A stretch of 56,852 nucleotides of DNA from Bacillota bacterium (GTDB lineage: Bacteria; Bacillota; Sulfobacillia; UBA995; UBA9673), in assembly GCA_003599345.1 (NCBI GenBank), contig QZJP01000078.1:1-56852 (forward strand), given 5' to 3'. The notes beneath the pieces are model-generated. The model made no database searches, had not been told where the DNA came from, and was given only the letters and a program-made list of their open reading frames with translations. Position numbers and translations under genes: made by a program. Shown piece after piece: positions 46,950 through 52,473 of this stretch (position 1 is the first letter of the stretch; each line of letters opens with the position of its first letter).

Positions 46950-47780
46950 ATGTGGGGGTTGGATCTCGGGTCTCTCGTCGGGCGCGGGAAGCGTGCCGAC
47001 GTCCACGCCTACGGCGATGGCCGCGTCCTAAAGCTCTTCGTCGACGGGACCGATTCCGGGGAGGCCGCCGGTGAGGCTGAGGCGACCAAGGTCGTCCACG
47101 ACTTGGGCCTGCCGGCTCCGGCGTGCTTCGGGACTGTGACCGTCGGGGCGCGGCCCGGCATTGTCTTCGAACGGGTGGACGGCCCTACCATGCTTGCGGA
47201 CTTCCTGGCCCGTCCCTGGCGGACTCTTGCAGTTGCCAGGCAGATGGCCGAGCTGCACGCGGTCATACACGGTGCCGTCATCTCCGACCGCTACCCGAGC
47301 CAGCGTGAGGCCGTGAGGCGGAAGATACTGGCGGCCGGGAGACTCGATGAGAACCTGAGAGACGCCGCGCTCAAGGCCCTGGCGGCCCTTCCCGACGGAG
47401 ACCGCGTCTGCCATGGCGACTTCCACCCGGGTAACGTGATACTCGGCCCACGGGGTCCCGTGGTCATCGATTGGCAGGACGCCAAGCGAGGCAACCCGGC
47501 GGCCGACATCGCCAGAACGGTCCTGCTCGCCCGGCACGCCCCGCTCCACTTCCCGCCAGGTCCTCACAGGGTCGTCCTGACGCTCCTGACCCGCCTCCTC
47601 GTCACCGGCTACCTGAGATACTACTCCCGGCTGAGGCCCCTCCGGCTCTCGGACGTCAGGGCATGGCTCCCGGTGCTGGCCGCCGCGAGGCTACGTGAGG
47701 GGTTAGAGGTCGAGGAGACCGCTCTTCTACGGCTCGCCGGCCTACTCGCCGGCCGGGATCCCACCTGCCGGCCCGAATGA
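46950..47780 (+). CDS. Aminoglycoside-phosphotransferase-fold small-molecule kinase
   Basis: A 276-residue protein-kinase-like fold (APH/choline kinase superfamily). A Lys in ADVHAYGDGRVLKLF is the ATP-binding residue, VCHGDFHPGNVIL is the catalytic Brenner motif, and VIDWQDAKRGNPAADIA has the metal-binding Asp. The substrate is not known; family members phosphorylate sugars, choline, nucleosides or drugs. No resistance context is seen. Start ATG 46950, behind GGGGGAGGGG. The pair HD hydrolase-kinase suggests a phosphorylation/dephosphorylation cycle on a shared metabolite, as inference. Confidence 0.8.
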   Translation: MWGLDLGSLVGRGKRADVHAYGDGRVLKLFVDGTDSGEAAGEAEATKVVHDLGLPAPACFGTVTVGARPGIVFERVDGPTMLADFLARPWRTLAVARQMAELHAVIHGAVISDRYPSQREAVRRKILAAGRLDENLRDAALKALAALPDGDRVCHGDFHPGNVILGPRGPVVIDWQDAKRGNPAADIARTVLLARHAPLHFPPGPHRVVLTLLTRLLVTGYLRYYSRLRPLRLSDVRAWLPVLAAARLREGLEVEETALLRLAGLLAGRDPTCRPE

Positions 47781-47844
47781 CGCAAAACAGGCATTTGGCG
47801 TCACTGTCAGAAGGGTTTCCCGCTGCTTCTCAAACCTGCTGCTC

Positions 47845-48771
47845 TTAGAGGTAACGCACCTGGTGCTTCTTCACGTGCCTCTTGAGCTCTTCGTTGTCCC
47901 TTACTCCCGCGTAGAGCATGGTCGTGTCCAAGGACTCGTGACCCGCCAACTTCTGGACTTCCCTGGGGTTGGCGCCGCTGATGAGGAGCTGAGTCACCCA
48001 CGTTGCCCTCAGCTTGTGCGGCGTGATCTTCTTGTCGAGGCCGGCGGACTGGGCAAGCCCTCTGACGATGCGCTGGATCTGCACGTGGGAGAGCCGCCCC
48101 TTGTTGCGGCTGACGAACAGCGGCTCCCCGTCGGGATCGGCCGGGACCTCCGGCCGAACCTTGAGGTAGGCCTGGACGTACTCTACGGCTTCGTCCGACG
48201 GCGGGACGATACGCTCCTTGTCCCCTTTTCCGACTACGCTGAGCCAGCCGTTCATCATCGCTTCGCGCCAGGTATCGAGGTTGAGGGACACGAGTTCGCT
48301 GATGCGGAGCCCTGAACCCAAGAGCAGGGTCAAGAGGGCCATGTCCCGAGCTTTCCGGAAGCTCTCGAACTCCGTCGCCGGCTCGCGCTTCCAGACCTCC
48401 AGAATCAGCCTGGACCCTTCGTCGAGCTCGAGGAAGACTGGAGAGCGGCGGGGGCGCTTCTGGGTTGAGACGTGCGCGGCGGGGTTTTCACCGTCGCTGA
48501 TCACTCTCGCGCCGACCATGAACTTGTAGAGACCCTTGATGGCGGCGAGGACCCGGTTTCTTCCCGCCGCCGAGTAGCGGCGCCCGTCCTTGCGGACCAG
48601 CCCCGAGAGGAACTCCTCGATGTCGGCTCTCGTAATGTCCTCGGGGTCGCTCCTGCCGGTCGTCACGGCCCAGTGCAGGAAGAGCCCCAGGTCCCGCCGG
48701 TATTCCTCCCGGGTAGCGGCCGAGAGCCTGAGGGAGCCCAGATAGCGTTCCACATGGTCCGCGAGGGCCAC
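47845..48771 (-). CDS. XerC/XerD-type tyrosine recombinase
   Basis: A 308-residue tyrosine recombinase. The catalytic set is visible: Arg in GLRISELVSL, Lys in VVGKGDKER, HKLRATW, the late His in LAGHESL and Tyr in TTMLYAGV. The N-terminal SAM-like domain contains LSAATREEYRRDL. Size and motifs match the chromosome-dimer-resolving Xer group. I chose GTG 48771 because GAGGAGGT (48786-48779) then has a 7-base spacing; the open frame runs back to 48972. There is no att-like duplication or integrase neighbourhood. It lies 239 bases downstream of the SOS-controlled small gene on the same strand and may share its transcript. Confidence 0.88.
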   Translation of the reverse strand: MALADHVERYLGSLRLSAATREEYRRDLGLFLHWAVTTGRSDPEDITRADIEEFLSGLVRKDGRRYSAAGRNRVLAAIKGLYKFMVGARVISDGENPAAHVSTQKRPRRSPVFLELDEGSRLILEVWKREPATEFESFRKARDMALLTLLLGSGLRISELVSLNLDTWREAMMNGWLSVVGKGDKERIVPPSDEAVEYVQAYLKVRPEVPADPDGEPLFVSRNKGRLSHVQIQRIVRGLAQSAGLDKKITPHKLRATWVTQLLISGANPREVQKLAGHESLDTTMLYAGVRDNEELKRHVKKHQVRYL

Positions 48772-49010
48772 GTCCTGTACCTCCTCGCCACCCCGTTCGA
48801 CCCGCCCCCACACAAGCCCTTCACGCCTCCGCTTGGGCGCCCGCGCTAAAAGCGTCGTTCCACGCGAGCCGGCCGGACTGGCTTCAGGCTCGAACGTGGG
48901 CCTTGTCTCGCCACCGGCTAACGATGAGTGCGGCAGCGGGCCCTCCCTACCTCCCCTCCCCTGCGCGAACACCAGTTCGTACCTTATTCTCGCGGCATCC
49001 CTGCGAGCGG

Positions 49011-49229
49011 CTATCCCGCGGCGAGTTGTTCGCCGATTCCGCCCTCCTGAGCGTCCTGCCGCCCGGCCGCGGAAGAAGAGCCGCCTTTCGACCCCTCCCC
49101 CACGCGACCGCTACGCCCGGTGCTGCCGGTAGGGCGGGAAACGGGAACGGGGATGAGCCGTCCGTCGGGTGCGCTACGCGCGGCGACGGCATACTTGTAG
49201 GTGCCTCGATCTTTGATTTGGATTCGCAT
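49011..49229 (-). CDS. Small unknown protein divergent from lexA, likely SOS-controlled
   Basis: A 72-residue protein from ATG 49229, with GAGGAGGT (49245-49238) eight bases upstream. The first 38 residues (MRIQIKDRGTYKYAVAARSA, then PDGRLIPVPVSRPTG) look like a small folded unit; the rest is Gly/Ser-rich and probably disordered. There is no membrane segment and no LysM domain, so it is not YneA, the usual divergent partner of lexA in bacilli. A near-consensus promoter with a LexA box just downstream of its -10 controls it. No family recognised. Confidence 0.7.
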   Translation of the reverse strand: MRIQIKDRGTYKYAVAARSAPDGRLIPVPVSRPTGSTGRSGRVGEGSKGGSSSAAGRQDAQEGGIGEQLAAG

Positions 49230-49309
49230 TGCTACGAACCTCCTCATAGTCCGAGTCCGGTCTCGGGTCAAAGGTTCTCCACGGGCGTCTCCATCGCCGG
49301 AGAACCGGG

Positions 49310-49323
49310 CGAACACGTGTTCG
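49310..49323. promoter_or_regulatory. LexA box 1
   Basis: CGAACACGTGTTCG, a perfect palindrome that fits the Bacillus-type SOS box (CGAAC-N4-GTTCG). It lies nine bases downstream of the -10 of the minus-strand promoter, where bound repressor would block the unknown small gene. Confidence 0.92.
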
Positions 49324-49331
49324 CTTCCCCT

Positions 49332-49360
49332 ATTCTAGTTGCCGCCACAGGCCTAGTCAA
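49332..49360 (-). promoter_or_regulatory. Sigma-A promoter of the divergent small gene
   Basis: On the minus strand TTGACT (49360-49355) and TAGAAT (49337-49332) with a 17-base spacer. It is a strong promoter, repressed by LexA through box 1. Confidence 0.85.
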
Positions 49361-49370
49361 GAGCTACGGG

Positions 49371-49384
49371 CGAACAATTGTTTG
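49371..49384. promoter_or_regulatory. LexA box 2
   Basis: CGAACAATTGTTTG, one base off the perfect palindrome. It covers the -35 of the lexA promoter and so provides autoregulation. The two boxes lie 61 bases apart, about six helical turns. Confidence 0.9.
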
Positions 49385-49410
49385 CCTTTCGACCGCCAAG
49401 CCCCTATAAT
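49382..49410 (+). promoter_or_regulatory. Sigma-A promoter of lexA
   Basis: TTGCCT (49382-49387) and the perfect TATAAT (49405-49410) with a 17-base spacer. LexA box 2 overlaps the -35. Confidence 0.88.
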
Positions 49411-49435
49411 GGAGGCGACCAGAGGAGGTGCGTGA

Positions 49436-50047
49436 GTGCCGTCCCTTACGTCGAGGCAGAAGCAGATACTCGAGTTCGTCAAGAAGTACATGCGGGAGAA
49501 GGGTTATCCCCCGTCGGTCCGGGAGATCGGGGAGAACGTAGGCCTGAGTTCCAGTTCGACCGTCCACGGGCATCTGTCGAGGCTCGAGGAGAAGGGCTAT
49601 CTCCGCCGCGACCTCTCCAAGCCTAGGGCCATCGAGCTCCTCGAGGACGAGGAGCGGGCCGTCCAGAAGCACCGGCTGGTCAACGTCCCGCTCGTCGGCC
49701 GAGTCACCGCCGGGGAGCCGGTGCTGGCCGTCCAGAACATCGAGGACTACGTCCCGCTGCCGAGAGACCTCGCCGGCGGAGAGGGCTCCTTCCTTCTCGC
49801 GGTCCGGGGCGACAGCATGATCGGCGCGGGTATCAACGACGGCGACCTGGTCATCGTCCGGCCGCAACACTCCGCCGACGAGGGAGACATCGTGGTGGCC
49901 ATGATCGAGGACGAGGCCACGGTGAAACGTTACTATCGCACCAGAGGGGCCGTGAGACTGCAACCGGAGAACCCCGCCCTGGAGCCGATTATCAGCCGCG
50001 ACGTTACCATCCTCGGCAAGGTCATCGGGCTCATCCGCCGGTTCTAG
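49436..50047 (+). CDS. lexA: LexA repressor, SOS regulator
   Basis: A 203-residue repressor with an N-terminal winged helix ([22 protein letters not shown]; written as segments [11 protein letters not shown] and [10 protein letters not shown]) and a C-terminal self-cleaving domain: cleavage site Ala92-Gly93 in VTAGEP, nucleophile Ser127 in RGDSM, base Lys164 in ATVKRYY. Start GTG 49436 with AGAGGAGGTG upstream. RecA filaments trigger cleavage and release of repressed genes after DNA damage. Two boxes upstream control it and the divergent small gene. The dinB gene in this window has no such box. Confidence 0.96.
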
Positions 50048-50118: not shown

Positions 50119-52473
50119 CTACGGGTTGGACCAGTCGAGCAGGCGCACCACCATCGTCGCGGCCTCGGCCCGGGTCGCGAGTCCGCCCGGGCGGAAGGTG
50201 TAGCGCCCGTCCGGTTCCAGGCAGCCCACGACGATGCCCTCACTGACGGCCACGGCTACGTGGCCGGGTTGGGTCCATGAGCCCGCGTCCGCCCACCGCC
50301 GCCCGCCGAGTTCCGTTTCCCCGCCGTAGACGGGGACCACCCGCGCACGGGCTTCGTTGTCGAGCCCCATCGCTCGCACGGCCATGACCGCTATCTCCTC
50401 GCGGGTTATCTCACGGTCGGGCTCGAAGCGGAGGCCGGGATAGTCCTCGAGCCTGACGATACCAGCCGCCACGGCCGGGCCGAGGTAACCCTGGGTCGCC
50501 ACCCAATGACCGCCGCTGTCGGCGAAGCCACCGTCGTTACCCGGGTCAAGAGCCGTACCCGTGGCTTTCGCCAGCATCTTGACGAACGCGGCGCGGGTCA
50601 GCCGGGCCTCCGGGCGGAACGTCCCGTCCGGGTAGCCGGACACCACGCCCATTCCGGCCAGGCGGGAGATGGCCGCCTCGGCCCAGTGCCCGGACACGTC
50701 ATAGAACAGCCAGGCCGCCCGGTAAAGCCTCTCCACGAGCTCGAGCGGCACGTGAGTCACGCCTCCGATGTCTCTTACCGGGAGAGGTAGAACCACCGGT
50801 AGGCCGTCCACCCATGCGACCGCGCTCCCCTGCGTCGCAGAGGCCACGTGGCCGTCAAGCGACCAGTAGGTCCTGCCCGCCTCCGGTACACGGAACGGCG
50901 CGGCTCCGATGAGCTCGAAGGCGTTCTCACCGACCAGCACAGGGCCATCAACGTGTCTCAAAGCCGGGACACTGCCCTTCCCGCCCGGGAGTAGAGCGGT
51001 CGCGCCGCTCAAGGCCACGCCCTGACCGGCGGGGAGCTCCACGCCCCCAAGCCTGTACTCGTCGCCCTCGGAGGTCACGATAAGAAGGTCGGACAATCCC
51101 GCCGTCAGGCCCACCGGCACCCTGCATGAGAAATCCGTTGGCGACGATATTGAGAGGTCACGGACGGGCAAGTCCCCCAGGAACAGCCTGATGCCGGAGC
51201 GGACGGCGAGACCTCTCACGGAGAACCTGACGGTCTCTCCGGAAGGCGTCCAGCTCCACCAGGGACGAGGTCCGACCTCCAACTGGCCGGAGCCCGTCGT
51301 GAACGACCAGGTGCGGCGGAAGGTCTCGGGCCCGCCGCCCCGGTCCACAACACCGGCCACGGCGACGCTGTACGTCGTGTAGGGTTCGAGGGGCTGGGCG
51401 GGTACTAGCGCCACGGTGTCGGTAAGCCGGTCGTCGTTCGCCGGAGAGAAGGTGAGGGTGGTCACCTGCCTACCCGCCGGGTCCGTGAGCGCCGCCGAGG
51501 TCAGCGACAGCGAGACCGGTTCGGGGAAGAACGTGACCGACACGGTATAGCCGACCGGACCCTCCGTGCCCGGGTAGAGCCTGAACGGGTCAGGACTCTC
51601 CAGCCCGTTCCAGCTCGTCGATACCCCCGTCTGGCCAGGGAAGGGCCATTCGACGACGGCCCGCTCTGTCACCCTCTTGAGGTCCACCGCGCAGTCGAGG
51701 ACGTCGACGACCCTGGTGTCCCCGGCGTGGCCGTACCCCATGCGGGACACGTGGGGGTTCACCAGGAGGAGCCGGTGGTAGAGGCTGGCCATCCAGGCGT
51801 CTACGGCCAGCTCGGCCTTGCCCTTGTAGGCGACGACCTCGCCGACCGCCCTGTCGGGGTAGCCGAAATAGGTGGCGCGGTCGGCCGCGCTGACCCCGGT
51901 GAACCGCGCCCTACCTGGCGTCTCGACATGCGCGTCGGCCTGGGCGTGATGGGCCACGTAGCTTGCGTGGCTGGCCGCTGCGACCCCCAAGGACGGGTCG
52001 TAGGCCAGCTCGGGAAGCGCGCCGGCTATCCGGTGAGCGTTGACGCGCGACAGAGCGTGGAGGCACTCCGGGTCCGGCTCGGGCAAGGCCGAAAGGGCCG
52101 TCGCCGCGACGGTGAAGTCGAACTCGGTCTCGATAGGCTCGTAGTAGTAGCCTGCCAGGGCGGGCCTGAACTCCACTATCAGCCTGACGCGGTGGGGTCC
52201 GGACGCCAGGGGTGCCGGCGGGACGTAGACGACCCTTCCGGTTGTCGAGTCCCATCGCGCCGGGACAGGCGCACCGTCCAGCCACATCTCGGCCCTGATG
52301 AAACCGTCTCCAGGGTCGATCACGAAGGTCTGGCCGATGAGCGGGGTCCGAAACCCTATCTCACCACGCGGGAAGGGCTCGTAGATGCTGACCCGGGCCT
52401 TAGCCGCCTGGGATAGGGCGGCCAGAAGCAACAGGACGAAGATAGCCAACCGAAGCAGTGATTGTCTTGACAT
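50119..52473 (-). CDS. Secreted surface protein with CAP domain and three SLH repeats
   Basis: A 784-residue exported protein. Signal peptide: LLRLAIFVLLLLAALSQAAKA. A beta-rich part (about 25-130), a CAP/SCP-like domain (about 135-275, with LSRVNAHRIAGALPELAYDP and SLYHRLLLVNPHVSRMGYG), a bacterial-Ig-like region (about 300-395, SLSLTSAALTDPAGRQVT), then a copper-amine-oxidase-N-like region (GLPVVLPLPVRDIGGVTHVP). The C-terminus has three SLH repeats (YDVSGHWAEAAISRL; FADSGGHWVATQGYL; WADAGSWTQPGHVAV), which anchor to pyruvylated cell-wall polymer. Start ATG 52473 with GGGAG upstream. Its job may be wall maintenance; no catalytic residues are recognised. Confidence 0.88.
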   Translation of the reverse strand: MSRQSLLRLAIFVLLLLAALSQAAKARVSIYEPFPRGEIGFRTPLIGQTFVIDPGDGFIRAEMWLDGAPVPARWDSTTGRVVYVPPAPLASGPHRVRLIVEFRPALAGYYYEPIETEFDFTVAATALSALPEPDPECLHALSRVNAHRIAGALPELAYDPSLGVAAASHASYVAHHAQADAHVETPGRARFTGVSAADRATYFGYPDRAVGEVVAYKGKAELAVDAWMASLYHRLLLVNPHVSRMGYGHAGDTRVVDVLDCAVDLKRVTERAVVEWPFPGQTGVSTSWNGLESPDPFRLYPGTEGPVGYTVSVTFFPEPVSLSLTSAALTDPAGRQVTTLTFSPANDDRLTDTVALVPAQPLEPYTTYSVAVAGVVDRGGGPETFRRTWSFTTGSGQLEVGPRPWWSWTPSGETVRFSVRGLAVRSGIRLFLGDLPVRDLSISSPTDFSCRVPVGLTAGLSDLLIVTSEGDEYRLGGVELPAGQGVALSGATALLPGGKGSVPALRHVDGPVLVGENAFELIGAAPFRVPEAGRTYWSLDGHVASATQGSAVAWVDGLPVVLPLPVRDIGGVTHVPLELVERLYRAAWLFYDVSGHWAEAAISRLAGMGVVSGYPDGTFRPEARLTRAAFVKMLAKATGTALDPGNDGGFADSGGHWVATQGYLGPAVAAGIVRLEDYPGLRFEPDREITREEIAVMAVRAMGLDNEARARVVPVYGGETELGGRRWADAGSWTQPGHVAVAVSEGIVVGCLEPDGRYTFRPGGLATRAEAATMVVRLLDWSNP

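Follow-up and report, generated by a model that had tools for sequence, protein, structure and literature searches.

The characterised genes adjacent to lexA in Gram-positive bacteria, namely yneA, sosA, chiZ and divS, encode division inhibitors that each have a single transmembrane segment (PMC6851548). SOS division inhibitors seemingly arose several times in these bacteria. Here, we describe a small gene divergent from lexA in a stretch of 56,852 nucleotides (the window), which is contig 5 of a genome of 2.32 Mb that is 82% complete. Its nearest relatives in our comparison were three genomes of the same family, G001, G002 and G003, each representing another genus. The features of the locus are listed in Table 1. 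On its far side, lexA is convergent with a gene (50119-52473) for a 784-aa protein that combines a CAP domain with three S-layer homology repeats.

Table 1. Features of the lexA locus in the window (SD, ribosome site)
Feature	Start	End	Strand	Basis and remarks
Xer-like tyrosine recombinase gene	47845	48771	-	308 aa; Phage_integrase 4.4e-34; SD at 48786-48779
LexA box 3, CGAACACCAGTTCG	48966	48979		Perfect; 3' of small gene; also in G001 and G002
Small gene, predicted SOS gene	49011	49229	-	72 aa; SD; kept in G001 and G002; frame score
LexA box 1, CGAACACGTGTTCG	49310	49323		Begins 8 nt after the small-gene -10
Small-gene promoter, TTGACT-17-TAGAAT	49332	49360	-	Promoter search; kept in G001 and G002
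LexA box 2, CGAACAATTGTTTG	49371	49384		Overlaps the lexA -35; kept in G001 and G002 at -66
lexA promoter, TTGCCT-17-TATAAT	49382	49410	+	Promoter search
lexA	49436	50047	+	203 aa; TIGR00498 247.5 bits (cut-off 110.95)

A small basic protein encoded beside lexA in three genera

The small gene consists of 72 codons starting from an ATG at 49229-49227, and it is preceded by the good ribosome site that a first-pass annotation of the window had pointed out (AGGAGGT, 49244-49238). Counterparts beside lexA, at equivalent positions and each with its own ribosome site, occur in two further genera of the family, encoding proteins of 57 aa (beginning MRIALGDDQRYKYVITARAGRGRFEGVPCRRV..., G001) and 71 aa (beginning MRITLGDRARFKYAQISRAGRDGRLVAVRCVRP..., G002). 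Neither lexA nor the small gene was found in G003. Since LexA boxes are present in that genome upstream of uvrA and of a Y-family polymerase gene, lexA and the small gene probably both fall in an assembly gap.

When the window and G002 were compared over 33 codons, the true frame scored 78 (BLOSUM62) and none of the other five exceeded 25. Nucleotide differences, summed over the three pairs of N-terminal 33 codons, were in excess at third positions (58 of 97 sites) relative to first and second positions (41 and 38). Judging from these comparisons, the first ~33 residues are constrained at the protein level and the tails are not; the latter gave no alignment among relatives, and their GC content by codon position followed no clear pattern. 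A chance reading frame at 49011-49229 is ruled out by the conservation across three genera together with the frame test. The first-pass annotation had staked the gene on conservation of this frame in relatives, and both G001 and G002 keep it.

The comparison is limited to three sequences, of which at least one is MAG-derived, and 11 residues are invariant among them (M1, R2, I3, D7, K12, Y13, R18, G23, R24, V28 and R32), five being arginine or lysine. The N-terminal 33 residues have a pI of 10.8-11.8 and a charge of +4.5 to +6.5. No transmembrane segment was detected in any of the three proteins, whose best 19-residue Kyte-Doolittle windows reached 0.39, 0.05 and -0.18, and Pfam retrieved no LysM domain. 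This agrees with the earlier description of a protein in the position of YneA that has neither a membrane nor a LysM segment. An AlphaFold2 model built from two sequences placed strands at residues 2-7, 10-19 and 25-27 followed by coil, with low confidence (pLDDT 54.7, pTM 0.22).

The protein had also been described as belonging to no known family, and our searches of Pfam, NCBIfam, PHROGs and PADLOC likewise gave no match. Comparison with PDB profiles was negative (best E 0.13 over 13 residues), no relatives were found in phage records or IMG/VR, and none of these sources yielded a homologue of known function. A profile search of 154 genomes of the class retrieved only the three family genomes, with nothing between 1e-19 and 3e-3.

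Operators and promoters of the divergent pair

A search of 47750-49480 for sigma-70-like promoters retrieved two, that of the small gene and that of lexA, against 0.1 expected. The small-gene promoter (TTGACT at 49360-49355 and TAGAAT at 49337-49332; 10/12) is the minus-strand promoter reported previously, with box 1 just past its -10, and its counterparts are TTGACT-18-TAGAAT in G001 and TTGACA-17-TAGAAT in G002. The motif CGAACNNNNGTTYG has five strand-matches in the whole window, all within 420 bp, against 0.14 expected. Box 1 is a perfect LexA palindrome at the small-gene transcription start; its counterparts are also perfect and lie 6 nt after the -10 in G001 and 8 nt after it in G002. 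Boxes 1 and 2 are present as first described, but that description was incomplete, since it overlooked the perfect box 3. The proposal of a LexA-controlled divergon is supported, and the small-gene promoter and the predicted operators are kept in three genera.

The same motif precedes uvrA in G001, G002 and G003 and a Y-family polymerase gene of the ImuB/DinB type in G002 and G003; in each of the four family genomes it also lies before a small gene that follows mutM (uvrA, the polymerase gene and mutM being recognised from their sequences alone). Around recA, we saw no perfect box. The motif is the predicted SOS operator of the family, validated by the boxes before uvrA and the polymerase gene. 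A perfect start-site box in three genera places the small gene beside lexA in the predicted LexA regulon, and we infer LexA binding and induction in vivo.

The small gene directly after mutM is a second LexA-boxed gene of this size. It encodes 76 aa (MQSFAMIFDTEDALRNGARRL...) at G000:C11:27174-27401 (L279, L307), and is also found at G001:C80, G002:C43 and G003:C109; at the last two, coaE lies downstream. The LexA box overlaps the -35 in four out of four family genomes. Homologues are present in 97 out of 154 class genomes; the upstream box is perfect in G004 and G025 and has one mismatch in G034 and G062. The protein matched no Pfam, NCBIfam or PADLOC family. Another perfect box (L293, G002:C84:1301) immediately precedes an ORF that, judged by eye, resembles a three-Cys-motif partner (TcmP-like) protein.

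The position beside lexA in the class

In at least 28 other genomes of the class, the gene divergent from lexA encodes a LysM protein, recognised by a GDTLW-type motif, and carries at least one LexA box. These proteins usually have a hydrophobic N-terminal segment, that is, they are YneA-like, which bears out the earlier remark that the small gene occupies the place of YneA. Seven further class genomes have a LysM gene upstream of lexA and in tandem with it. All four family genomes contain LysM domains, but the flanks of the LysM loci examined there showed no LexA box, allowing one mismatch, close to the start of a LysM gene. These loci contained three scattered sites with one mismatch, roughly as many as chance would give. 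Since our search of the family turned up no LysM gene with a LexA box, the replacement of a LysM protein by a basic soluble one would extend to every family genome in which lexA is seen.

At two other loci of the class, L075 (G008) and L077, the divergent LysM gene beside lexA is followed by a tyrosine recombinase gene on the same strand, an arrangement similar to yneA-yneB with a different class of recombinase.

Box 3 and the recombinase gene

Box 3 has a counterpart 3' of the small gene in both relatives, with one mismatch in G001 and none in G002, and the distance from the stop codon to the box is about 20-45 nt in all three genomes. LexA sites with up to one mismatch number 10 in 102 kb of family background DNA, about one per 10 kb, so the three placements are not due to chance. 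No promoter was recognisable at box 3 within the region searched. In G001 and G002, no clear gene follows the box on the small-gene strand, and its equivalents at L056 and L057 are kept even without a same-strand gene following. The L056 locus (G002:C130) contains, after box 3 and ~479 nt upstream of lexA, a 55-aa minus-strand ORF with a good ribosome site, which was seen only in G002; CRISPR-like repeats (GTCGCAACCCTCATCCCGACGAATAGGGGACTGAAAG) occupy positions 1-480 of this locus, ~1.7 kb from lexA.

The recombinase gene begins at a GTG preceded by the ribosome site GAGGAGGT. The first-pass annotation had set its start at 48972, which we revise to 48771, where the profile matches begin. A coding N-terminal extension over 48772-48972 is rejected on the same grounds, and this segment is instead a leader. 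The protein reached none of the NCBIfam Xer cut-offs, falling far short of those for XerC (197.6 bits against 335.15) and XerD (196.5 against 329.6), and also of that for integron integrase (93.1 against 265). In a phylogenetic tree, it fell outside the XerC and XerD clades on a long branch (3.79), a placement that is not reliable. The gene is absent from G001-G003, which contain only XerC/XerD-like genes with 35-38% identity, and its sole close relative in the class is in G091 (68% identity), with no LexA box around it. From this patchy distribution, the recombinase gene looks acquired. Since G001 and G002 keep box 3 without the recombinase, we conclude that the box is the older of the two.

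LexA control shared by the small gene and the recombinase had also been suggested. A LexA box of its own does lie ~195 nt before the recombinase start, but the proposal is weakened by the lack of a recognisable promoter there, of a family counterpart and of a box at the G091 relative. Any SOS link of the recombinase would therefore be peculiar to the genome of the window.

Discussion

What the compared genomes show directly is a conserved gene with its promoter and operators, the lack of membrane and LysM parts, and a pattern of replacement; a checkpoint role for the protein is put forward only as a hypothesis. We tentatively read it as a soluble, LexA-repressed SOS checkpoint effector in a YneA-type position, a reading that seems possible, if somewhat short of probable. 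LexA bound to box 2 would block the lexA -35, and LexA on box 1, at the transcription start, would shut the small gene off. Following DNA damage and LexA cleavage, a soluble, strongly basic protein of 57-72 aa would be made, replacing the YneA-type LysM protein as the SOS checkpoint effector of the family. Its likeliest role would be to delay division or replication, probably through a transient cytoplasmic delay of growth/division or replication in which the short, beta-rich basic domain binds a partner. The place shared with SosA, YneA, ChiZ and DivS argues for a checkpoint role, albeit circumstantially, whereas the absence of a membrane segment argues against the mechanism of the known lexA-adjacent inhibitors. 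The wider proposal, that a new family of soluble basic mini-proteins has replaced a membrane-anchored YneA-type protein as a cytoplasmic damage checkpoint effector in a Gram-positive lineage, is more doubtful.

The main rival to the checkpoint reading is that the protein binds nucleic acids, its basic beta mini-domain aiding repair, modulating RecA/LexA or regulating genes upon SOS induction with no relation to division. The invariant basic residues R2, K12, R18, R24 and R32, the high pI of the N-terminal 33 residues and the strands of the low-confidence model favour this view, and the basic N-terminus appears to fit it at least as well as a checkpoint role. Against it, neither fold nor sequence linked the protein to a DNA-binding family, PDB profiles included, and the position is usually occupied by a checkpoint protein; we consider it a substantial possibility, though a minority one. 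A minor or decaying gene, left as a short, weakly constrained and unimportant ORF under the boxed promoter after loss of the ancestral LysM gene, would account for the unalignable tails with no clear codon-position pattern, the length range of 57-72 aa and the confinement of the family to three genomes. It is hard to reconcile with the protein-level similarity of the N-terminal 33 codons across three genera, their third-position excess and the conserved ribosome site and promoter, and we regard it as improbable.

Least likely of all would be a single LexA-controlled operon in which the small gene and the recombinase have a joint recombination role, like yneA-yneB in bacilli, where yneB, encoding a serine resolvase, belongs to the SOS-induced yneA operon. 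The two genes share a strand, with box 3 between them and no minus-strand terminator seen, and beside lexA in G008 and L077 a tyrosine recombinase gene comes after a LysM gene. Yet 239 nt separate the small gene and the recombinase gene, none of the other three family genomes has the recombinase although two retain the small gene, and the 68% relative in G091 lacks a LexA box.

If the checkpoint reading is true, a conserved LexA-controlled soluble protein in this position would show that one mechanism of checkpoint output can be exchanged for another. The small protein is a small and easily expressed test object.

With respect to known systems, the locus resembles yneA-yneB-ynzC in that a site-specific recombinase gene comes after a small SOS gene beside lexA, in the genome of the window only. 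It differs in that the recombinase is of the tyrosine rather than the serine type and is missing in relatives, and in the LexA box between the genes. YneA and ChiZ share with the small protein a location beside lexA, LexA control and small size; the latter is soluble and basic, with no transmembrane segment, LysM domain or sequence similarity, and its membership of the YneA/ChiZ family is rejected on the two features tested, the transmembrane segment and LysM. SulA is the cytosolic SOS division inhibitor of enterobacteria, and the small protein would likewise be a soluble SOS protein of this kind if its function is division arrest; we take it to be much smaller than SulA, not homologous to it and encoded at a different locus. 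SosA differs in its membrane segment and extracellular C-terminus (PMC6851548), and we found no similarity between the two sequences. Nevertheless, SosA of staphylococci, with 77 aa encoded divergently from lexA, resembles the small protein in size, position, LexA control, restriction to one family and absence of LysM.
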